Of a DNA stretch of 57,281 bases, positions 2,934 to 44,308 are shown one piece after another. The position numbers and the translations under genes are program-made. This DNA comes from Candidatus Kapaibacterium sp. Its GTDB lineage: Bacteria; Bacteroidota; Ignavibacteria; Kapaibacteriales; UBA2268. A model generated the notes under the pieces. That model did not search any database and was not told the origin of the DNA. It worked only from the letters and a program-made list of their open reading frames with translations. How positions within the stretch are numbered: position 1 is the first letter of the stretch; every line of letters begins with the position of its first letter. Where the stretch lies: NCBI GenBank assembly GCA_026418625.1, contig JAOABA010000017.1:1-57281 (forward strand). The letters run 5' to 3'.

Positions 2934-4186
2934 TTTTCGAATTCATTTAATTTTTCAAAAAGCATAGTGAGAGCTGCGGCAACAGAACGCTCTCTATTGA
3001 TTTCTCTATCATCACCAAAAAGAAATTTTTTTGCGATAGATTTTTTATTATCTGCTAAACCTATCCAAACAGTTCCTACAGGTTTTTCTGAGGTTCCACC
3101 TGTTGGTCCGGCAATTCCTGTAATAGAAATACCAAAGTCAGCTCTGAATTTATCTTTAATATTTTTAGCCATTTCTAATGCTGTTTGTTCGCTAACTGCA
3201 CCAAAAGACTCAATAGTTGCTTTTTCCACACCTAATATATCAATTTTAATTTCATTACTATAAGCTATGATTCCACCCAAGAATATATCTGAACTGCCTG
3301 AATAATTGGTAAAGTTTGCACCAAGCAACCCACCTGTGCAAGATTCTGCAACGGCAACTGTCATTTTCTTTTGTCTTAATATATTGCTTACTGTTAGCAC
3401 CAAATCGTCTGAGTCAGTTCCGACAACATATTTGGATATTTTTTTCATTAAATATTTTTCAATTTTTTCTATTTTTTCTTTTCCTTCCTCAAAAGTTTTG
3501 GAATTGACACCAATCCTCAAACGAACACCTTTGTATGAGGGTAAATAAGCAAAACTACAATCTTCTGGAAAGTCAGATTTACTTCCAATCAAAATTGCTA
3601 AGTCAGACTCAAATATTCCGGCAGTATGAATAGTTTTATATAATACTAAGTCTGAATTCTTTTGATTTAAGAAATTTTTCAAAAAAGGGATAACACTATC
3701 TTCGATGATAAATTTCATTTCTTTTGGCACTCCGGGGAGAGAAATGAAAACTTTGCCATTTTCTTCGAATAACATACCCGGTGCAGTTCCAAACATATTT
3801 CTTAATGCTTTACACTTAGTAGGTAGCATTGCTTGAGTTTTGTGAAGCTCATTCATTTCTCGACCTCTACTTGAGAACCAATTCTTAAGGTATTCAAATG
3901 TCGGTTGATGAAATTCTAATTTATCATTGAGAAATTCACAGAGCGTTGGTTTAGTTATGTCGTCTTCTGTCGGTCCTAAACCACCTGTAATAATTACAAT
4001 ATCTGATATTTTAGCAAGACGCTCAAGTTCTGCTAACATTAATTCTTTTTTATCTGGAACGGTAGAGTGCAAAAGAACATTTAAACCGATAGATGTGCAT
4101 TTTGAAGCGATATATGCTGAATTTGTATTGACAATCTGCCCAATACAAATTTCATCACCTATTGTCAGTATTGAAACATTAACCAT
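2930..4186 (-). CDS. cinA: CinA family protein (nicotinamide mononucleotide deamidase / competence-damage inducible)
   Basis: This 418-residue protein has the standard two-domain CinA layout. An N-terminal MoCF/COG1058 domain (about 1-170) carries GGLGPTEDD at 68-76 and GTAPGM at about 133. A C-terminal PncC-type domain (about 255-415) carries VAESCTGG at about residue 280 and ITGIAGPTGG. Family members deamidate NMN in pyridine-nucleotide recycling, and the N-terminal domain has ADP-ribose pyrophosphatase activity in some species. The gene lies downstream of rpsA, separated by a strong hairpin terminator, so it needs its own promoter or read-through. Its end overlaps tsaD by four bases. Confidence 0.95.
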   Translation of the reverse strand: MVNVSILTIGDEICIGQIVNTNSAYIASKCTSIGLNVLLHSTVPDKKELMLAELERLAKISDIVIITGGLGPTEDDITKPTLCEFLNDKLEFHQPTFEYLKNWFSSRGREMNELHKTQAMLPTKCKALRNMFGTAPGMLFEENGKVFISLPGVPKEMKFIIEDSVIPFLKNFLNQKNSDLVLYKTIHTAGIFESDLAILIGSKSDFPEDCSFAYLPSYKGVRLRIGVNSKTFEEGKEKIEKIEKYLMKKISKYVVGTDSDDLVLTVSNILRQKKMTVAVAESCTGGLLGANFTNYSGSSDIFLGGIIAYSNEIKIDILGVEKATIESFGAVSEQTALEMAKNIKDKFRADFGISITGIAGPTGGTSEKPVGTVWIGLADNKKSIAKKFLFGDDREINRERSVAAALTMLFEKLNEFEK

Positions 4187-4204
4187 ATCAAAAATTTTAA
4201 ATGA

Positions 4205-4248
4205 CGAATAAAAATAAAAAAACTGTCAGAAAAATATCCTGACAGTTT
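4205..4248 (-). terminator. Rho-independent terminator after rpsA
   Basis: A perfect 10-bp inverted repeat (AAACTGTCAG at 4220-4229, CTGACAGTTT at 4239-4248) has a 9-base loop. Read on the minus strand it is followed by a T-rich tract, and it begins 23 bases past the rpsA stop codon. It should end most rpsA transcripts before cinA. Confidence 0.9.
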
Positions 4249-4271
4249 CTCAAATTAAATTTAACTAAATA

Positions 4272-6350
4272 TTAGTCTTTTTTCTCCTCAGATTCCGCTT
4301 GTGGCTCAGTTGTAATAACTACGATGTCTTCATTTTCGACCAAATCCACCTTAGAATCAGTTGAGTTATCCTCAGTAACATTAGACTCAACATTTTGTAA
4401 GTCAATTGCTTCCTCTGGTTGTTGATCAGTAACAGTTTCTATAACAAGCTCAGTAGATTCAGTTTTAGCTTCTTGAACTTTTTCAACTGGCTTTTCGTAA
4501 GGTTTTTCATACATCTGATATTCGTCAGGGAAGTTTAATTCCTCAGGGGTTACCGGAGGTGGTGGCTCATTGACATACATATCAGCATTTGGAACAGGGT
4601 GAGCAGCATTGTAAGCATCAATAACGGCTCTATCCTTATCTCTCAAAGCTTCAACAACTGAAAGAACAATTTTTTTAGATTCTTTGTTAAATTCAACTAC
4701 TTTTAAAGGCAGCCTATCACCGATTGTGAAATAATCACTAATAATTTTAACAGGTGCAAAAGAGAGCTGAGAAGCAGGAACGAAACCATCAACAGCATCG
4801 GGTAGCTCTACAATAACGCCCTTTTCAATGATTCTTTCAATTTTAGCTTCTGTTTCGGCTCCGATGTAATATTTTTGTTCAAAATAGTCCCACGGATTTT
4901 CTTTAATTTGTTTATGTCCAAGAGCAATTCTTCTTTGTTCGGAATCAACACCGATGACCATAACTTCTAATTCTTCACCTTTTTTAACGAATTCGCCGGG
5001 ATGTCTGATTTTTTTGGTCCAAGACAAGTCGCTAATGTGAACAAGACCGTCAACACCGGGTTCAAGCTCGACGAAAACGCCGAAGTTTGTTAGATTTCTA
5101 ACAATACCTCTGTGTCTTGAATTCAATGGATATTTTTGCATCAATTCATCCCAAGGATCGGGCTCTAATTGTTTCATACCCAAAGCAAGTTTCTTTTCTT
5201 CCTTATCAATATTAAGGACAACGGCATCGACAACCTGACCCATCGAAACGACTTGAGAAGGATGTTTAACGTGCTGTGTCCAAGACATTTCGCTGATATG
5301 AATTAAACCTTCTATACCCTTTTCAATTTCAATGAATGCACCATAATCAGTTAAGCTGACAACTTTTCCAGTAACTTTGGTTCCTTTTTCGTATTTGTCG
5401 CCGATAGTATCCCAAGGATGCGGAGTTAATTGCTTCATACTGAGTGAGATTCTGCGTTTTTCGTGATCAAAGTCGAGAATGACTACCTTAACAACTTGAT
5501 CGAGTTCGACAATCTCAGATGGATGAGTTACTCTTCCCCAAGATAAGTCTGTAATGTGAACTAAACCGTCAACTCCACCAAGATCAACAAAAACCCCAAA
5601 GTCAGCGATAGCTTTGACAACTCCTTCAAGCACCAAGCCTTTTTCGAGTTTTGAGATAATGCCGCTTCTTTGTTCGCTCAGCTGTTCTTCGAGAAGAACT
5701 TTGTGGCTGACAACGACGTTTTCGCTTGGATGGTTAACTTTAACTACTCTGACATCAATAGTTTTACCGACCCAAGAATCGAAATCTCTAACGGGTCTGA
5801 TGTCAATTTGTGAACCCGGTAAAAATGCCTCGATACCAAGTAGATCCACAACCATTCCACCTTTTATTCTTCTAAGGATTCTAACGGGGACGACTTCTTG
5901 TTTGTTATAAAGGTTAAGAATATCTTCCCAAATGCGCATAAAATCGGCTCTGCGTCTCGAAAGAATAAGTTTACCATTTGGATCTTCAATCGTATCAACA
6001 TAGACGTCTATTACGTCGCCGATTTTTAAAGTTTCTGCATTTAAAAGTTCAGCTTTTGGAACGACTCCCACTGATTTAAAGCCGATATCAACAAAGACTT
6101 CATCCTTGGTTATGTTAACGATTTTGCCTCGAACAAGCTCGTCCTCTTTGATATCTGTAAAAACTTTATCTAAAAGGTTTTTGAAACTATCATCATCCAT
6201 TTCTAAGTCATTAAATTCAGCTTCCTTGGATAATGAGGTTAGTGGATTGGATCTTTTTTCAGCAATTGCAGAATAATCAAATTCTGATGATGTTGTGTTT
6301 TCTGTGTTTTCGTTATTAATCTCTTGATTAATAATTTCAGTTTCGGACAT
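4272..6350 (-). CDS. rpsA: 30S ribosomal protein bS1
   Basis: bS1 binds mRNA on the 30S subunit and helps start translation. This 692-residue form has six recognisable S1 (OB-fold) repeats. They begin near VRGKIVNITKDEVFVDIG, VPVRILRRIKGGMVVDL, LEGVVKAIADFGVFVDLGG, VTGKVVSLTDYGAFIEI, HRGIVRNLTNFGVFVEL and AKIERIIEKGVIVELP. It is longer than the 557-residue E. coli protein because of an acidic N-terminal extension of about 70 residues and an acidic, Glu/Asp/Pro/Val-rich tail of about 110 residues after the last repeat. A strong Shine-Dalgarno (GGAGG) sits seven bases before the ATG. The gene has its own terminator and is probably monocistronic. Confidence 0.97.
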   Translation of the reverse strand: MSETEIINQEINNENTENTTSSEFDYSAIAEKRSNPLTSLSKEAEFNDLEMDDDSFKNLLDKVFTDIKEDELVRGKIVNITKDEVFVDIGFKSVGVVPKAELLNAETLKIGDVIDVYVDTIEDPNGKLILSRRRADFMRIWEDILNLYNKQEVVPVRILRRIKGGMVVDLLGIEAFLPGSQIDIRPVRDFDSWVGKTIDVRVVKVNHPSENVVVSHKVLLEEQLSEQRSGIISKLEKGLVLEGVVKAIADFGVFVDLGGVDGLVHITDLSWGRVTHPSEIVELDQVVKVVILDFDHEKRRISLSMKQLTPHPWDTIGDKYEKGTKVTGKVVSLTDYGAFIEIEKGIEGLIHISEMSWTQHVKHPSQVVSMGQVVDAVVLNIDKEEKKLALGMKQLEPDPWDELMQKYPLNSRHRGIVRNLTNFGVFVELEPGVDGLVHISDLSWTKKIRHPGEFVKKGEELEVMVIGVDSEQRRIALGHKQIKENPWDYFEQKYYIGAETEAKIERIIEKGVIVELPDAVDGFVPASQLSFAPVKIISDYFTIGDRLPLKVVEFNKESKKIVLSVVEALRDKDRAVIDAYNAAHPVPNADMYVNEPPPPVTPEELNFPDEYQMYEKPYEKPVEKVQEAKTESTELVIETVTDQQPEEAIDLQNVESNVTEDNSTDSKVDLVENEDIVVITTEPQAESEEKKD

Positions 6351-6684
6351 TAATTTCCTCCATTATCGGTGTTTTCTGCCGCCGACAGCATCTAGTTAAA
6401 AAATACAATTTTTTTAATTTTGTAAAATAAAGACTTACAATATAATATATTTTAAGAATTTATGGAAATATTTATTCAATATTTTTTTGAAAATTCTTAT
6501 TTTTTGGTTTAAAAATCATCTTGTTATTTTTTTTTATTTTAAATCAGAAAGCTTGCTTTCCCAAAAGAATAAAGTTAGAAAAAATCAGATCTTTTCTTGC
6601 AGAGGATTAAGAGATTAAATGATGTTCTTAGATTAATTACTTTGTAAATTTTTTGATTATTTGGTAATTGAAAATCCTGAGTAT
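6351..6684. other. Intergenic region upstream of rpsA
   Basis: This 334-base very AT-rich gap lies between the stop of nadD and the start of rpsA, both on the minus strand. It must hold the rpsA promoter and leader. The last 60 bases before rpsA contain a GC-richer patch (GCTGTCGGCGGCAG) that could form only a very short stem. A minus-strand TATATTG at about 6440 is a weak candidate for the -7 element. I see no ORF, RNA gene or convincing terminator here. Confidence 0.5.
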
Positions 6685-30669: not shown

Positions 30670-31269
30670 TTATTTTAAAATTTCAACAATACCTGTCCAG
30701 AACACATTAAAGCTTTTTGATTTGTTTTTTATTGGTTCCATAAATGATGATATATTATTTGCTACTTCAATTTTTCTTAATCCGGTTTTAAAATATCCTT
30801 TACTTTGAAAAATTTTTTCAAAATATTCCCAAGTATTATCTATTGCATCAGGATTGTTAAGCTTATCACTTTTTTTAATATTACCAATTTTAGGATAAGC
30901 AGATTTTATGGCATCTGGATCGCCTAAAAGCCAAGATTCTAATTCTTTCATTGCAATTCTAATCATAATGTTAAAATCTTTTATCCCTTGGGATTTTGGT
31001 ATTAGATTTGAGTCAATAGCAATTTTTTCAATTCTTTCCTTTAATTTATGGCAATCATCCTTGTCTAAGTCAACAACAACAATGATCTTAAAGTCTTTAT
31101 CAATCCATTTTGAATATGCTTTAAGTGTAGACGGCAATTTCCTTAAAAGATCTGTTTTTCCCTGATATGTTATTACTCTATAAGTATGATTATTTATAAC
31201 CATTCTTGGTAGCAAATTATCTAAAACACTTCTCATTGATAATTCTTCAACTAAAAATTCAAGGTGCAT
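30670..31269 (-). CDS. DUF4276 family protein, Toprim-like partner of the adjacent ATPase
   Basis: This 199-residue protein resembles DUF4276. Conserved acidic positions are Glu8/Glu9 in FLVEELSM, Asp67-Leu-Asp69 in IIVVVDLDKDD, and Glu109/Glu111 with Asp117 in KELESWLLGD. The early Glu followed by a DxD after a hydrophobic strand is the layout of Toprim-like nuclease or primase folds. The gene starts three bases after the AAA ATPase gene, and this gene pair is recurrent in bacteria. By analogy with ATPase/Toprim defence pairs it could be an effector nuclease (inference, not shown). Confidence 0.75.
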   Translation of the reverse strand: MHLEFLVEELSMRSVLDNLLPRMVINNHTYRVITYQGKTDLLRKLPSTLKAYSKWIDKDFKIIVVVDLDKDDCHKLKERIEKIAIDSNLIPKSQGIKDFNIMIRIAMKELESWLLGDPDAIKSAYPKIGNIKKSDKLNNPDAIDNTWEYFEKIFQSKGYFKTGLRKIEVANNISSFMEPIKNKSKSFNVFWTGIVEILK

Positions 31270-31272
31270 AGC

Positions 31273-32514
31273 TTATCTTATAACTTTTTTAAAATTTTTA
31301 CTAAATTCACTTACTAATGGATCACCAATACCAAAATGACCTTCAATCCAAAGTTGTCCTAATTGAGCGCCTTCTTCCATAAATTCTTTTATACCCTTTA
31401 TTTGATCTGCTCTTTTTGCCTGTGTGTAACCATTATTATCTCTGTATAGTATCCAAAGTTCATTTGATTTTAAACCATTAACAAAAAAAGGGCTATGAGT
31501 AGTAACCATTAATTGTGAAATCTCTGCTGAAGCTCTGCATTCCTCGGCCAGAATTGGTAAAAGGCTTGGGTGTAAGTGATTTTCTGGCTCTTCAATACCT
31601 ATTAACTGGGGTGGTTCCGGATCATATAATATAATAAGATATGCTAACATCTTTAAGGTTCCATCTGAGGCAAACTTTGATAATATTGGTTTATCAAAAG
31701 GAGCATCTTTGATTTGTAATAGTAATCTTCCATCCTGCATTATATCTGCTTCAACTTTTTCTAACCTTGGAACTCTTCTTGATAGAATATTTAAAATTTT
31801 TTCTAATCTATCTGGATGGTTTTCCTTTAAATATTGCATAACATTAGGAAGGTTATCTCCTGTAGCTGACAATCTCTCTTGAGCTCCAGCTTCAGGAATA
31901 CCTCTTATATGATCTGTGGTTAAATATGATAAATACCAGCTAGTAATGAATCTTCTCAAAGCAATGACCCTCGAATTTTTTGATAATTGACCTAAAGTAT
32001 TAACAGCAATCATATCAGGGCTATCGAGAGATTCATTAATTTTTTCATCTTCTGAGTCTGGAAATTCTCCTGATATTACAGTTCCTTTGCCTTTTGAAAA
32101 GTCCAAAAATGCAAATGGTTTTCCAATACTTCCTTTTCTTCTCCAAAGAAGTTTTTCACTTTCTACAAATACTCCTTTTTGATTTTCATTTATTTTCAAT
32201 TGGTAAGTTATTATTGGTGAATCTGTTTTTTCTCGATATTTTAATTCAAATTCAATTGGTCCTTCTGAATTTCTTGTTCTTAATTCTTTAAACCTTCCTC
32301 TTTTATCCCATGCTTTTCTTAATCCTATCGAAAAACATTCTGATAGGAAAGCGAAAACATCGAAAAGAGTTGATTTACCGCTACCATTTGGTCCAAGAAA
32401 AACAGATAATGGTGTTAAATCTGAGAGTTCCAGCTCTTTCAAAGCTCTATAATTTTTCACTCTAAGCTTTTCTATTCTTGGAGTCTCACGTGATAATTCT
32501 TTTTTTGCTTTCAT
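31273..32514 (-). CDS. AAA/ABC-type ATPase (AAA_21, RecF/OLD-like)
   Basis: This 413-residue protein has an SMC/ABC-like ATPase head. Walker A is GPNGSGKST (41-49), the ABC signature region is [14 protein letters not shown], Walker B is [12 protein letters not shown] (about 305-315), and the switch His is in TTHSP (about 339). The N-terminal [17 protein letters not shown] is typical of RecF-like and OLD-like proteins. It has no long coiled coil and no fused Toprim domain; the following DUF4276 gene may supply the catalytic part. Such pairs are typical of mobile accessory genes, often antiviral, though this pair's activity is not known to me. Confidence 0.85.
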
Positions 32515-35424: not shown

Positions 35425-37566
35425 TTAATAAAGTATTAATTTGTATGCTTTATAATTTCTATTGTCTTTAACCAGCACTTTATAACTTCCTGCTGGTAAA
35501 CCTTTAACTGGTAGATTTATTTCATAATTTCCATTTCTCAAATCAGCATTTATTATATCTTTGATTTTCCTACCAAGAGCGTCATAAATTTCTATTTGAA
35601 TTTTATCGGTATTGATGAAAGTTCTAAGATTCACATCTTGATTTGACGTTGCTGGATTTGGGAAAATTCCATCAAGAAAGTTTTCATCGGAAATTTCTTT
35701 TATATTGGTAATTACTGAGGAAACCTCACAAAGGATATAAGTTGTATCAATTGAAACTGAGTCAGGAAGAAAATCAAGGACTAAATCGAATGTCTTTGAT
35801 CTTGAATCTATAACCAAAATCTCAGAATTTTTGATTTCACCTTCATTATAAAAATCAACTTTGACAGGTGTTATGAATACTTCAGGTACTTCCGAAAAAG
35901 TCTGAGTTTGGTTTAATGTAATTTTAGTAAGATATTTATTATCAACTTTGCGATAAGTTTCTGAAATAAGGTTAAAGATTGGGTGTCCGGGCGAATAAAC
36001 CCAGTTATTGAAAAATGCATCAAAAGAAATTGGAGGATTAGGAACCGAACGAATGAAAAATTCCTTAAAATCCTCAGTGGTTAGGGATTTATATTTATAT
36101 TCATTAAGTAAATTACGTAAGGTGTTAAAGAATACTTCATCGCCTAACATAGTTCTAAGCATATGATATATCCACGAGGATTTTGCGTAAGTAATATAGT
36201 AATTAAAAAGGTCTTTCATCGGAGGGTTATAACTACGGAAAAGAGCTATCCCGCCACCTTTGAAATAAGTTGCTCTACGATTAAGCATAAGGGCATTATA
36301 AAAATTTTTATTTATCGAATGTTCGGCATAAATTGCCTCGCTCCAAGTTGCGCCACCCTCATTAATCCATATATCTTTCCAACTAGCACAAGTTATTAAA
36401 TCTCCAATCCATTGATGAGCAAGTTCGTGAGCCAATCCAAATTGTTCATTTGTTCTAAGCCAAACCCTATTGATAGATGACAATGTTTGATGTTCCATTC
36501 CTCCAGCCCAAAATGGTTGTAATATAACTGTTCCATACTTTGAAAATGGATACTCAATATAAACTTCGGAAAATATTTCCATCATACGTGCAGTTGTTGA
36601 TAAAGCTCTTGTTGCATTATATTCTGTTCCATCTGTTTTTGTGGATCTAAAATCCTTATCCCAAACAAAATGAATAATAGGTATTGAGTCGTTAGGATTA
36701 GAAACCTTTTTATACCAATCTTTCATAATTACATATTTTGAAGCCGTGGCTGCCATAAGATAAGTTGCCACCGGCGCATCATCAGCCCAATAATATATGG
36801 TTGTTTTATCCGTGAGTGTATCAATTTTTTGTAATAAACCATTTGAAGCAACAATGAAACCAAGTGGGACTCTGACCTTAATTGTTGAAACAGCTTTGTC
36901 ATAGGGATTATCATTGCAGGGCATCCATTTTCTTGCACTTTCGGGTTGGCTCATAGTATATGCAATTCTTTCCTCAACCCAAGCGGTATCATTAGTATTT
37001 GGAATCACTCCAACAAACATTTTTTTCGGATATAAAAAGAATCCATCCTGAGTATTTGATTTATATGTATATTCTATAGATAGATTTATGGTATCACCAA
37101 CTTTTATATTTGGATTTAATGGAATTTTCAAGATGTTATTAACAGGTTGAGGTGTATTAGATAATTTTACACTATTTAAGGTAACAGAATTAATCAAAAA
37201 ATCAGCAGCATCAAGCTCAATAAATTCAACATTGAAAGAATCAATTCTTATTTTCATTGAATTTATGCCTTTCCAGATTCTGTCTGTGCTATCCACATAA
37301 GGAACACCGTTTATATTTATTTTATCTTGACTTAAAGGATTTACCCAATCCATATATAAATTATAGCTTAGAACATCATAAGGTCTTCTCACTAAATCTT
37401 TTGATAATAACTTATCATATTTTAGTCCGGAATGTAGGTGATTACAAGAAAACTCCTTAAATTCATATTTATCACCGTCTATAAAAATCATTTCATAAAT
37501 TGACTTTGAATAAGTTTCTGAAAAAAAGAACAATGTAAGGAATGTTACCCAAACTGATAATTTCAT
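35425..37566 (-). CDS. Secreted M1 family metallopeptidase with T9SS type A sorting domain
   Basis: This 713-residue gluzincin aminopeptidase has a signal peptide. The zinc site HELAHQW lies at about residues 380-386, with the third ligand Glu in WINEGGATWSEA about 20 residues later. The substrate-binding loop reads GGMEHQT instead of the classic GAMEN. The last ~80 residues form a type IX secretion sorting domain (GIFPNPATSNQDVNLRTF, IYDALGRKIKDI, GLPAGSYKVLV). The protein is therefore predicted to be exported to the cell surface or released, where it would trim peptides. Confidence 0.93.
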   Translation of the reverse strand: MKLSVWVTFLTLFFFSETYSKSIYEMIFIDGDKYEFKEFSCNHLHSGLKYDKLLSKDLVRRPYDVLSYNLYMDWVNPLSQDKININGVPYVDSTDRIWKGINSMKIRIDSFNVEFIELDAADFLINSVTLNSVKLSNTPQPVNNILKIPLNPNIKVGDTINLSIEYTYKSNTQDGFFLYPKKMFVGVIPNTNDTAWVEERIAYTMSQPESARKWMPCNDNPYDKAVSTIKVRVPLGFIVASNGLLQKIDTLTDKTTIYYWADDAPVATYLMAATASKYVIMKDWYKKVSNPNDSIPIIHFVWDKDFRSTKTDGTEYNATRALSTTARMMEIFSEVYIEYPFSKYGTVILQPFWAGGMEHQTLSSINRVWLRTNEQFGLAHELAHQWIGDLITCASWKDIWINEGGATWSEAIYAEHSINKNFYNALMLNRRATYFKGGGIALFRSYNPPMKDLFNYYITYAKSSWIYHMLRTMLGDEVFFNTLRNLLNEYKYKSLTTEDFKEFFIRSVPNPPISFDAFFNNWVYSPGHPIFNLISETYRKVDNKYLTKITLNQTQTFSEVPEVFITPVKVDFYNEGEIKNSEILVIDSRSKTFDLVLDFLPDSVSIDTTYILCEVSSVITNIKEISDENFLDGIFPNPATSNQDVNLRTFINTDKIQIEIYDALGRKIKDIINADLRNGNYEINLPVKGLPAGSYKVLVKDNRNYKAYKLILY

Positions 37567-40912: not shown

Positions 40913-43900
40913 TTATTTAATTATTACTGCTTTGACAGTAGAACTTGCCAAACCAGATTTCAATACAAAGTAGTAAACCCCTGAGGATAGAGAATTAGTA
41001 TTAACTTTATATTTATGAACACCACTATCTTTGAATTCAGAGAGAACAGTTATAACATCTCTGCCGAAATTATCAACAACTTTCAATGTAACGTTTTCAG
41101 GTTTATTTAAAGCAAATTGGACGTCAGCTTCGTTTGATATTGGATTAGGTGTAACTTTCAAGCCGAAGTAATTATTCTCGTTCATTTCATCGTAACCTGT
41201 TGTTCTGTCAGTTGTAAACAAGGCATAAGTGCCATTTTGATTGATGAATCCTGTTACTATTTGCTCTGAGGTATCAACAGTGCTTGGGATAACCATCCAT
41301 TTTCTTGTATTTTCGTCCCACTTATGAATTTTCAGACTGGTTTCATCTTTTAAAATCAAGTCAGTCTTAGAATAACGCATCAAAAGTATATTATTAGAAT
41401 TTGGACTAAAATCCATAGGATAAGAAGTTATTGAAACAACATATCCAACATGTTCCGGTTCTCTGACTAAGCCTTCTGTAATAGGAAAGAAATCCGATGC
41501 TAAAAGAGCAATTGTCCTGAATTCGGAATTTTTTGGATCAATTGAGATTTCTGCAGAACCTAATGGGGCTGATAATTTGTCTTGCCTTTCTGATATGATA
41601 TAATGAACTGGAATAAAGAATGGATTCTCAGCTTCATCAATAAGAGAAATTTGAATTGTGCCTTCCTTTAAAAGAGATGTTCCTAAATTAGCCGAAAATG
41701 ATATTGATTTATCGATGTATCGTGTTGTCAATCGTTTGTAATTGTTTTGATCATCTGGAACACCAAGAACAGGAAGATTTGACAGAGAAGCTTTTGAGAA
41801 TAAATGATAATTCAGTGCGCCTTGCTGATCAAATTTCCAAGTATTTACAAATTGGAAATCACCTTTAACTCTGTCTAGTTGAACTATAACTTCTTCAAGT
41901 GGTTTATCTTCAAATTCTTTGTCGATACCTGTAACTGAAGTAATAGTATAATTTTTATAAGATAAAAAGCTTATATAACCAAACAATGGTAAATACATTT
42001 TTTTTGTGTATTGAATGGCGACCATATTTCCAACAGTTGCACCTAAAACTTTAATTTTTCCGTCATCGGAGGTTTGACCCTGATATGACAAGACAATTGG
42101 AAACAAAGATGAGGGTAGACTATAATAAGTGTGAGCTTTTGTAACTTTTTTTCCTTCATCGTCAATGCAAGTAATATCCACATCACCGGCCGAAGAACTA
42201 TTATTGAATATTTTAATATCCATCAAAGGATCAATTATGCATTGATTTTGATTAGATATGAAATCAAGAGGACCAAGCAAATAGTCCCTACCAGAACTTA
42301 ATGTCCTTTCAGATGGTTTATAGATTGGACAAAAGAAACCACCACCGCTTGTAACATAGGTCTTTTCCCAGTCTTTTTCAAATTGTGTCCAGCAATCACT
42401 ACCGTTCCAAGCCCATTGAGCGGTATATTTCCAGTTATCATTAGAATATCGTCCCGGAAATGACATTTCTGAAGAATAAGGACCACCATTACTATACTGG
42501 TATTGCATAAAACCAAACTTATAGCCCGCAGGGAGAGTCTTTTGTTTATTTGTATCAACCCAAACATATTCATCATAAAAACCAAAAAGATAATGCCCAA
42601 GCTCATGGGCAATTGTTGTTGATGAAGCTCTACTCCAATAATTATCAGATTCAGAAATCCATGTATTCAAAGCTGTTCTATTCCTTGATGGATCGGCATT
42701 ACCAAACCATCTTCTTGGCATTCTCACTTGAGCGTCATAATAATCATTTAGTTTAATTCCGCCAACTGATGCATTAGGCCAGACAACATTACTCACAAAT
42801 ATCTTTATATCAGCTTGATTCCATTTTTGTTTGTTATCATAAATTGCTACTTTTTTAATATAAAGATGTCCATCGGTAACATCCCACAAATAATTTGACA
42901 TAGCTTTAACCCAGCTTTTTAGTGTGTCAAGATATTCTTGTTTAGCGTCCCATTCAACTGAAATCACCAAATTAAATAACAGTTGAGTATGATCCATTTT
43001 AATATCCTGATACTCTGAATTAGAAATAGTATAATAAGATGGCTGTCCATTTCCATCAAATTTTAAATTGTTAAGCTTTATTTCATACATTCTGTTATCA
43101 ACTGCTTCATGTCCAGTTTTAACTGAATTTAATGACGTAACAGACCTTTCAAGTTTTATTTGATCTCCAAGAGACAAACCTAAATCAGACAAAAAAATTG
43201 AGAAGATCCCTGAACTATTCGTTGTAACTTCAGTTAAAAACGTTGAATTATTATCGCAACTACCTTTGTAAAGATTGAATTTTATATTTTTCATTAAAGT
43301 ATTTTTTGCATCATATACTCTAAACTTAGTTCTTTGTAACCAGTCAAGAATACCTGTTATGTCAAAATTTGATATCTTAATGTTGCTTTTCGTTATTCCA
43401 ATAAACTTATCTTCTTTGTCTATTATGATATCAATTAGTCTATCATTGAATTTTAAATCTTCATTTTCGTCAGACCATTTATTTTTTTCTTTATCAAAAA
43501 TTCTAATATCGAAATCAGACATAGAAACCAAATTACGTTTGGAAAATTTGATTTTTCTGATAACTTTTTGACCACTTGGAGGTAAAGCTGTCCATACCCT
43601 TTGTTTATAGTCATATTGATAAATTTGATTGGCAATAACTGCAAAAAAAGCTTGGTTCTCATCGAATGTAAATTGATTGACTATTGGTTCTTCTTTAATT
43701 CCTTCTATCACTTCCTGCCAAGTTCTTGTAGAAAGTTCATAAATGGAGTATTGCTCTTTTCTGATTGTGCAAATAAAAGGATTCAAATAAGCATCAAATT
43801 TTACTTTTGTTACTTTTATTTTTTCAAGATTACCAGTGATATTGCTCCATTGTGTGCCATTAAGAACAGATGCTGATTTGTAAATACCGTTGTCAGTGCC

Positions 43901-44308
43901 TACTGCTAAATCACCTTCTAAACTCATATCTGAACAGTTTATCATTTCCTGCTTTCTTTGAAAATCATAAATAACTAACCATTCAAACTGTTTCCTTGGT
44001 GATCTGTAAATTAAACTTTGCCCTATAACAAATATGAATCCATTTGGTGATAGATATATGCTTTGGATGTTATCCTGATCCATTAACTTTTGGCTAAGGT
44101 TTGTCCAAGATTTCCCTTTGTTATTTGAATAATGGACACCTCCGGCATTAGTTCCGATGAACATTTCATCTCCATCAGAGACAAAACAGGTTATTTCTGC
44201 ATTAAGACCATCCGGTAAATTAATATCTTCCCATAAGTCTTGAGCGTTGATTATAGTGAACGCAAAGAAGAAGCAAATTACCGATAATGTAAAATTTAAA
44301 TGCTTCAT
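40913..44308 (-). CDS. Large secreted protein: beta-propeller, CLCA-like metalloprotease motif, T9SS sorting domain
   Basis: This 1131-residue protein starts with a signal peptide (ending INAQ). Residues of about 25-330 repeat short propeller-like blades (EMFIGTNAGGVHYSNNKGKSW, LAVGTDNGIYKSA). A carboxypeptidase-regulatory-like fold follows (FRVYDAKNTLMKNIKFNLYKG). At about residues 565-580 is HELGHYLFGFYDEY, which matches the HExxHxxxGxxDEY signature of the CLCA N-terminal metalloprotease domain. Later come Ig-like segments, and the last ~85 residues are a type A T9SS sorting domain ([35 protein letters not shown]). It is predicted to sit on or leave the cell surface. The proteolytic role is inferred only from the motif. 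Confidence 0.85.
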   Translation of the reverse strand: MKHLNFTLSVICFFFAFTIINAQDLWEDINLPDGLNAEITCFVSDGDEMFIGTNAGGVHYSNNKGKSWTNLSQKLMDQDNIQSIYLSPNGFIFVIGQSLIYRSPRKQFEWLVIYDFQRKQEMINCSDMSLEGDLAVGTDNGIYKSASVLNGTQWSNITGNLEKIKVTKVKFDAYLNPFICTIRKEQYSIYELSTRTWQEVIEGIKEEPIVNQFTFDENQAFFAVIANQIYQYDYKQRVWTALPPSGQKVIRKIKFSKRNLVSMSDFDIRIFDKEKNKWSDENEDLKFNDRLIDIIIDKEDKFIGITKSNIKISNFDITGILDWLQRTKFRVYDAKNTLMKNIKFNLYKGSCDNNSTFLTEVTTNSSGIFSIFLSDLGLSLGDQIKLERSVTSLNSVKTGHEAVDNRMYEIKLNNLKFDGNGQPSYYTISNSEYQDIKMDHTQLLFNLVISVEWDAKQEYLDTLKSWVKAMSNYLWDVTDGHLYIKKVAIYDNKQKWNQADIKIFVSNVVWPNASVGGIKLNDYYDAQVRMPRRWFGNADPSRNRTALNTWISESDNYWSRASSTTIAHELGHYLFGFYDEYVWVDTNKQKTLPAGYKFGFMQYQYSNGGPYSSEMSFPGRYSNDNWKYTAQWAWNGSDCWTQFEKDWEKTYVTSGGGFFCPIYKPSERTLSSGRDYLLGPLDFISNQNQCIIDPLMDIKIFNNSSSAGDVDITCIDDEGKKVTKAHTYYSLPSSLFPIVLSYQGQTSDDGKIKVLGATVGNMVAIQYTKKMYLPLFGYISFLSYKNYTITSVTGIDKEFEDKPLEEVIVQLDRVKGDFQFVNTWKFDQQGALNYHLFSKASLSNLPVLGVPDDQNNYKRLTTRYIDKSISFSANLGTSLLKEGTIQISLIDEAENPFFIPVHYIISERQDKLSAPLGSAEISIDPKNSEFRTIALLASDFFPITEGLVREPEHVGYVVSITSYPMDFSPNSNNILLMRYSKTDLILKDETSLKIHKWDENTRKWMVIPSTVDTSEQIVTGFINQNGTYALFTTDRTTGYDEMNENNYFGLKVTPNPISNEADVQFALNKPENVTLKVVDNFGRDVITVLSEFKDSGVHKYKVNTNSLSSGVYYFVLKSGLASSTVKAVIIK

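Follow-up and report, generated by a model that had tools for sequence, protein, structure and literature searches.

A gene of Candidatus Kapaibacterium sp., located in the stretch of 57,281 nucleotides that we analysed (the window), probably encodes an active zinc metallopeptidase of the zincin clan, which would be exported by the type IX secretion system (T9SS), be held at the cell surface or secreted, and represent a family without a Pfam or NCBIfam model; judging from sequence comparisons, we place the probability of this reading at about 0.72. Both the conservation found and the matches to tail models support a zinc metalloprotease-like core that is joined to a propeller and a type IX tail.

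Gene and domain organization

The gene is an open reading frame with an ATG start (Table 1), and the opposite, plus strand of the same interval is rich in stops. An earlier, sequence-only reading had reported the frame of 1131 residues without a strand; the frame is confirmed, and the strand is minus. Two AlphaFold runs with the window protein and its relative L009 yielded pLDDT values of 29.3 and 31.1, too low for a usable model.

Table 1. Coordinates of the gene and its features in the window
Feature	Positions	Strand	Remarks
Whole gene, 1131 aa	40913..44308	-	MKHLNFTLSVICFFFAFTIINAQ at the N-terminus resembles a signal peptide, judged by eye
Propeller-like module, residues 24-325	43334..44239	-	Seven Trp, 39-44 residues apart; weak library matches
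Pre-protease module, residues 330-424, part of the conserved core	43037..43321	-	Profile matches in distant relatives
Zincin-like catalytic domain, residues 430-690	42239..43021	-	25-row alignment A1 and profile matches
Motif HELGHYLFGFYDEY, residues 568-581	42566..42607	-	Expected Zn ligands H568/H572/D579; putative catalytic E569; E580 invariant
Invariant G-x-M, residues 599-601	42506..42514	-	G599 and M601 each 25/25
CW, residues 639-640	42389..42394	-	C639 24/25, W640 25/25
Post-protease module, residues 691-770	41999..42238	-	Profile matches in distant relatives
Family-specific C-terminal module, residues 850-1042	41183..41761	-	Profile of residues 880-1040
Type IX secretion C-terminal sorting domain, residues 1052-1130	40919..41155	-	PF18962 8.5e-9, TIGR04183 8.4e-8 (E-values)

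The type IX export tail proposed from the sequence alone proved to be above cut-off in both Pfam and NCBIfam, scoring 36 bits with PF18962 (cut-off 27) and 32.1 bits with TIGR04183 (cut-off 23). Full-length scans of relatives covered 8 of 17 ORFs, and the tail exceeded the cut-off in seven of these eight, the last one reaching 26.5 against 27. Furthermore, the same genome encodes SprA (754 bits) and a T9SS sortase (811 bits), and the N-terminal start of the protein is hydrophobic by eye.

Along the N-terminal part, Trp residues at 26, 68, 110, 154, 197, 239 and 278 follow one another at spacings of 42, 42, 44, 43, 42 and 39 residues. In the Pfam and NCBIfam scans no propeller model rose above its cut-off in the window protein, with ANAPC4_WD40 (Pfam) at 19.7 bits (cut-off 22.9) and the NCBIfam F510_1955 glycosylhydrolase model, which we take to be a propeller, at 20 bits (cut-off 175); among the relatives, PSII_BNR scored 26.8 bits in L111 (cut-off 27) and PD40 24.8 bits in L112, above its cut-off of 20.9. 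The propeller repeats of the earlier reading are thus supported by the regular Trp spacing and by the matches in relatives, the library matches in the window protein itself all being below cut-off.

Active-site motif

The claimed HExxHxxxGxxDEY signature is indeed present as HELGHYLFGFYDEY, beginning at residue 568 and not at 567. All six frames of the window together contain its pattern HE..H.{6}DEY a single time, and none of 100 mononucleotide shuffles contains it. Across the 25 aligned catalytic domains, which are 20-82% identical to the window protein, H568, E569, H572 and D579 are each kept in 24 and Y581 in 23, the motif Gly being retained in just 15; E580, G599, M601 and W640 are invariant and C639 nearly so (Table 1). 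On the model of the M64 peptidase ThomasA (PMC12402451), H568, H572 and D579 are expected to be the zinc ligands. The invariant G599-x-M601 is a possible Met-turn. The step from the second His to the Asp is 7 in 23 of the 25 domains and 8 in one, and the site is lost in one.

A family with exchangeable modules

Relatives were detected in 13 of the 391 genomes of the class. The set of 26 relative ORFs omits L010, which duplicates the window. From the 25 rows of alignment A1, L011 is missing as well, since its contig has the same length (10595) as that of L009 and the two are apparently identical in sequence; the 25 references drawn from alignment A4, of the C-terminal module, do not include L018 and L022. 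In one scan, no more than five candidates were scored in each genome. Matches to the region profiles were counted among the stretches listed, up to three for each protein, for eight near and eight distant relatives. Among the distant ones, the profile of residues 330-424 matched five (E 2.3e-5 or better), that of the catalytic domain (430-690) all eight (E 1.3e-11 or better; the same region had found these relatives), that of residues 691-770 four (E 9e-6 or better), and that of residues 880-1040 seven (E 8.3e-10 or better). The propeller-region profile matched seven of the eight near relatives, which overlap its training set, at E 3.2e-72 or better, and one of the eight distant relatives by a partial match (E 6e-6). 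The N-terminal modules vary, with a propeller in the near set and Laminin_G_3 (106.7 bits) in L100. The conserved core, which extends from the pre-protease module as far as the C-terminal module, thus recurs in distant relatives. As far as these profiles indicate, this is a coherent family in which exchangeable N-terminal modules precede a protease core, and a C-terminal module peculiar to the family is followed by a type IX tail.

In a search of the own genome with alignment A4, this locus was the sole match at E up to 0.1. Of 12 loci compared, that of L009, from the same genus, was alone in sharing the gene order, which hence offers no operon clue to function. No model of Pfam, NCBIfam or PHROGs exceeded its cut-off on the catalytic domain, so that Pfam and NCBIfam would name such genes just for their type IX tail. 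A viral origin was considered and rejected, since viral contigs, phages and plasmids contained zero relatives and the PHROGs matches were weak (best E 0.0086).

Relationship to known peptidases

CLCA_N (PF08434) occurs in animal CLCA1, 2 and 4, and also in some bacteria and archaea. The window protein had been described as CLCA-like, and its motif fits the CLCA consensus HExxHxxxGxxDEY (PMC3650047); the motif is nevertheless not specific for CLCA, because all 30 fetched loci of M64 peptidases contain HE..H.{6}DEY. The Pfam scan covered all 25 catalytic domains, and follow-up single-member scans covered 10 and 8 of them. Against a cut-off of 25.6 bits, PF08434 gave 14 bits for the window catalytic domain and 12.3 bits for a longer piece, human CLCA N-domains giving 373-500 bits as positive control; for the whole window protein, CLCA was unlisted in Pfam at E up to 1. 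CLCA was listed for four of the 25 members and all 25 stayed under the cut-off, the best being L009 with 17.5 bits (E 0.003) and a match collinear over about 125-127 residues. By Cys positions, the window protein has no cysteine-rich region after the catalytic domain as in CLCA: its Cys lie at +60, +81 and +111 relative to the motif Asp, and those of the CLCA sequences compared at +20/21, +31-34, +36-39, +41-44 and +51-57, with two further. After the protease, Pfam revealed no VWA, DUF1973 or FN3 (E up to 1 with the full sequence, up to 10 with pieces), an absence that alone is not exclusive since some prokaryotic CLCA have other domain architectures (Lenart et al.). With the motif removed, the family profile gave each of the three CLCA N-halves a higher score than any of its 2000 shuffles and ranked them over all 30 M64 and 16 M6 N-halves, but the match spanned just 32-35 residues (E 0.14-0.69), and in the reverse test one of 25 N-halves and no C-halves surpassed the best shuffle. 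Faint as it is, this motif-independent signal favours CLCA, not M64 or M6. Additionally, CLCA_N sequences were found in 0 of 395 genomes of the phylum, where control genomes likewise gave no signal, and in no plasmids, phages, PDB entries or viral contigs with CLCA1 as bait. What stands of the first reading is the metalloprotease-like core, the propeller and the type IX tail; its CLCA membership, at 14 against 25.6 bits, does not. Taking these results together, we consider it highly improbable that the protein is a true bacterial CLCA member, self-cleaving like animal CLCA.

It seems unlikely, too, that the family is a strongly diverged branch of either the IgA peptidases (M64) or the immune inhibitor A-like peptidases (M6). 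The M64 motif is HEXXHXXXGXXD (PMC12402451), which residues 568-581 of the window protein fit. The step from the second His to the Asp is 7 in all 30 M64 and in three CLCA sequences, but 6 in all 16 M6 loci used, namely those of 19 fetched above cut-off that fit the motif pattern. M64 was the sole Pfam match of the family consensus (E 0.043; CLCA unlisted), accounted for all three matches of the PDB profile search (9ekk and 9qdh at E 0.016, 3p1v at E 0.92), and came first, slightly above CLCA, in whole-domain hhalign (probability 65); the alignment, however, covered 30 columns, all around the motif, and without the motif none of the 25 N-halves or 25 C-halves outscored shuffled sequences against either M64 or M6. 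PF09471 (M64, cut-off 26 bits) matched five of the 25 members (best E 0.0062), with 16.2 bits in L033 as the best score among the matches listed, and was unlisted for the window protein in Pfam scans. The M6 model TIGR03296 matched four of 25, giving 21.2 bits in the window protein and, in L009, 30.4 bits for a match of 121 residues (E 3.4e-7), the strongest library match to the catalytic domain yet far from its cut-off of 110.8 bits; a separate M6 protein above cut-off is encoded in the same genome. Two further candidates were set aside: Zincin_1 (two of 25; 18.9 against 22.4 bits), which had the best Pfam E-value for the domain (0.0015) but was sub-cut-off and limited to the motif region, and metzin_BF0631 (four of 25, best E 0.0023, cut-off 208.1 bits). 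The window protein has no full counterpart of the second zinc site of ThomasA (E551 and three Cys), C639 being its only well-conserved Cys; within +130 from the Asp, the range over which Cys were compared, just 3 of 30 M64 sequences have three Cys, and the missing site therefore counts little. Finally, L028, otherwise conserved, carries YGLGKYLWGFYEEW where the active site would be, so that not every copy requires proteolysis, and binding is the role of modules such as the propeller and the lectin-like ones; it is still very unlikely that the protein is an adhesin or scaffold of the surface that retains the protease fold though cutting is not required, since H, E, H and D are all kept in 24 of 25 copies, which would be unexpected were catalysis idle.

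Possible function, origin and comparison with known systems

As an active exported peptidase, the family would, by analogy, work in the manner of secreted M64 and CLCA peptidases. H568, H572 and D579 would bind zinc, and E569 would activate water. The propeller, whose place other modules take in relatives, may position the enzyme at its target; the sortase would remove the tail upon fixing the protein to the surface. Degradation of outside proteins appears likelier than self-processing. This would be a rare exported protease family, given its 13 of 391 genomes, with an interchangeable targeting part. In the open-licence PubMed Central literature we found none joining T9SS, metalloprotease and CLCA, or Kapabacteria, type IX secretion and peptidase, and none combining any three of zincin, type IX secretion, beta-propeller, Peptidase M64 and CLCA.

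CLCA reportedly passed from animals to bacteria. A decidedly unlikely but far-reaching idea is that the CLCA catalytic domain has a bacterial sister in this family, which would link animal CLCA to the bacterial M64/M6-type zincins. Among the four members that have diverged most, L020, L029 and L022 do have three Cys, the first lying 16-21 residues past the motif Asp, as one does in CLCA, and these might be what is left of a common site, for a second metal or a disulfide, that was lost in the Kapabacteria branch. Were this true, the animals-to-bacteria view would be reversed, at least for the origin of the fold, and a proven tie to CLCA would bear on the source of the animal CLCA protease.

Among known systems, M64 (the IgA protease ThomasA, and BF3526/3P1V) shares with the family the His-to-Asp spacing, the DEY and a secreted multidomain build with accessory modules, but the match is sub-cut-off and limited to the motif. 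M6 (TIGR03296) has a similar HExGH...D.Y look, whereas its His-to-Asp step is one residue shorter and the best score is 30.4 against 110.8 bits. CLCA_N resembles the family in its HExxHxxxGxxDEY motif, in a weak collinear match and in belonging to secreted proteins; it differs in that the family lies far under the Pfam cut-off and often lacks the motif Gly, and in that the window protein, without VWA, DUF1973, FN3 or the cysteine-rich region, has a type IX tail and a propeller instead. On these comparisons, the family is best read as one of its own, with CLCA_N perhaps as its nearest neighbour.

Gene, motif and type IX export

The open reading frame that had been proposed from the sequence alone does exist on the minus strand (table below), the plus strand over 40913-44308 holding no open frame, with stops throughout. 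Its proposed motif, HELGHYLFGFYDEY, was likewise found, beginning at residue 568, and the pattern HE..H.{6}DEY occurred once in the window and in 0 of 100 shuffles. The type IX sorting tail, also correctly read, exceeded the cut-offs of both Pfam and NCBIfam, and is the sole part of the protein to pass any cut-off in these libraries. A search of the own genome gave no match to the protease part besides the part itself; the remaining 47 matches of the window protein fell on the tail or, in a few cases, on the propeller. The same genome encodes SprA (754 bits) and the T9SS sortase (811 bits), and therefore the export route is present.

Features of the window, the own genome (G000) and loci with relatives (L, locus; G, genome; C, contig)
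Feature	Location	Strand	Score or remark
Window protein	40913-44308	minus	1131 aa
Peptidase_M1 protein	35425-37566	minus	108 bits; also type IX sorting tail, 37.8 bits
AAA_21/AAA_15 ATPase	30670-32514	minus	98 bits; adjoins DUF4276 protein, 79 bits
Separate M6-family metalloprotease, own genome (L078)	G000:C52:73572-74432		147 bits versus cut-off 110.8
Split family protein (L106)	G299:C126:3239-6666		two overlapping ORFs, different frames
L106, N-terminal ORF	5764-6666		34% over 243 residues to N-terminal region of window protein
L106, protease ORF	3239-5803		protease part
Neighbouring paralogues L020 and L029 (L101)	G280:C39:4959-10072		each with three post-motif Cys
Member with replaced active site (L028 = L114)	G299:C118:96475-97314		YGLGKYLWGFYEEW

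The Peptidase_M1 gene lies about 3 kb from that of the window protein. Pairs of such an ATPase with DUF4276 we take to be candidate phage defence.

Relatives and exchangeable modules

Matches to the catalytic part were present in 13 of the 391 genomes of the class, own included, with at most four copies per genome, and the family profile found 3 of the 395 genomes of the phylum, again including our own and with one weak match (E 3.7e-4). Relatives were sought in phages, plasmids and viral contigs, and none was found there. One relative, in a Candidatus Kapabacteria MAG (L009), shares 75% identity with the window protein in its best segment, and among 12 compared loci it alone preserves the surrounding gene order. 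The splitting of the protein across frames at L106 is a frame break or an assembly error.

Each module profile was built from 17 near members, or from 16 in the case of the propeller, and tested on eight distant ORFs. The protease region was recovered in all eight (E 1.3e-11 or better), as expected for ORFs originally found by it, the C-terminal module in seven (8.3e-10 or better), the pre-protease module in five (2.3e-5 or better), the post-protease module in four (9e-6 or better) and the propeller in one, as a partial match (6e-6); the core is thus conserved and the N-terminal part swapped. At L100, a Laminin_G_3 domain (106.7 bits) stands in place of the propeller. In the window protein the propeller is supported by seven Trp that recur at 39-44-residue intervals and by sub-threshold library matches; in relatives, PSII_BNR and PD40 matches support it. 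The type IX tail passed the Pfam cut-off in seven of eight relatives scanned, the eighth scoring 26.5 against 27. The C-terminal module had no second occurrence in the own genome at E up to 0.1, and its best PDB match reached E 0.56.

Conservation of the catalytic domain

Across 25 aligned catalytic domains (20-82% identity to the window protein), E580, G599, M601 and W640 were invariant, and H568, E569, H572, F577, D579 and C639 were each conserved in 24. The Gly of the CLCA-style signature was kept in only 15 of the 25, and therefore the family's own signature reads HExGHYxxxFxDEY...GxM...CW. In L028 the active site is replaced while the rest is conserved, even E580, and the same genome encodes two intact copies, L017 and L032. 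Substituted active sites are described among CLCA too (PMC3650047).

Cys at +16 to +21, +51 to +58 and +63 to +71 from the Asp occur in L020, L029 and L022, three of the four members that have diverged furthest. Of these Cys, L021 as the remaining one of the four has none and L018 has two; near members keep the last position only (about +55 to +72), many with further Cys downstream. In the CLCA sequences used for comparison, the first Cys lies at +20/21. The second zinc of M64 is reported to be held by a Glu and three Cys (PMC12402451), and E580 is the family's counterpart of that Glu. Judging from these residues, the family may have inherited a second metal or structural site and then lost it in part.

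Proposed mode of action

Given the tail and the two machinery genes, the window protein is most likely exported by the type IX route. Type IX tails are cut off by a sortase, which would also remove that of the window protein. The propeller or its substitutes, as module swapping suggests, may bind the target. Judging by conservation and the analogy with M64, the zincin core would cleave proteins, its zinc being bound by H568, H572 and D579 while E569 acts as the general base.

Comparison with CLCA, M64 and M6

The sequence-only reading had called the domain CLCA-like, and its motif does match the consensus HExxHxxxGxxDEY (PMC3650047); the CLCA model, however, gave 14 bits for the window domain and 17.5 for the best relative against a cut-off of 25.6. 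The N-domains of CLCA1, 2 and 4, in provisional sequences, served as positive controls (466, 373 and 500 bits). A sequence search of the PDB copy found no CLCA_N, and CLCA was matched in 0 of the 395 genomes of the phylum, where the control gave no match either; PMC3650047 places CLCA_N in scattered bacteria. With the M64 model the family scored at best 16.2 bits (cut-off 26), M64 structures were the only sequence matches of the family profile in the PDB (E 0.016 to 0.92), and the search with the family consensus listed M64 and not CLCA. The M6 model stayed at 30.4 bits versus 110.8, yet its E of 3.4e-7 was the best library match to the catalytic domain; the best Pfam E-value belonged to Zincin_1 (0.0015 for L017, 18.9 bits versus 22.4), over only 35 residues at the motif. 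From the second His to the Asp the family steps 7 residues in 23 of 25 members (one steps 8 and another has lost the site), like M64 (30/30) and the three CLCA sequences, and unlike M6, which steps 6 (16/16 used).

When everything from four residues upstream of HExxH onward was cut away, the family profile scored 9.7, 9.0 and 10.7 bits on the remaining N-halves of CLCA1, 2 and 4, all above 2000 shuffles of each, whereas the top scores were 4.1 among 30 M64 and 1.5 among 16 M6 N-halves. This CLCA match spans just 32-35 residues (E 0.14-0.69), by eye a helix and strand region. In reverse the signal was weaker: the three-sequence CLCA profile lifted only 1 of 25 family N-halves above the best of 5000 shuffles, and the M64 and M6 profiles none; no C-half exceeded shuffles for any of the three, and whole domains with motif exceeded the best of 1000 shuffles in 6, 4 and 1 of 25 (CLCA, M64, M6). 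By hhalign, M64 ranked top in probability (65.2; 30 columns at the motif, P 6e-5) and CLCA1 in extent (124 collinear columns, P 1.2e-4, probability 55.5), with M6 at 63 columns (P 1.8e-4, 48.6). Kinship with CLCA_N is accordingly hinted at rather than proved, the comparison leaning on provisional sequences of three close paralogues.

The look of the active site is common to three known families, CLCA, M64 and M6. In M64 the motif is HEXXHXXXGXXD, its two His and Asp being the expected catalytic-zinc ligands (PMC12402451), and the likeness of CLCA to M64 was already noted in PMC3650047; the motif, common to both, is therefore not diagnostic of CLCA, for which self-cleavage is described (PMC6851300).
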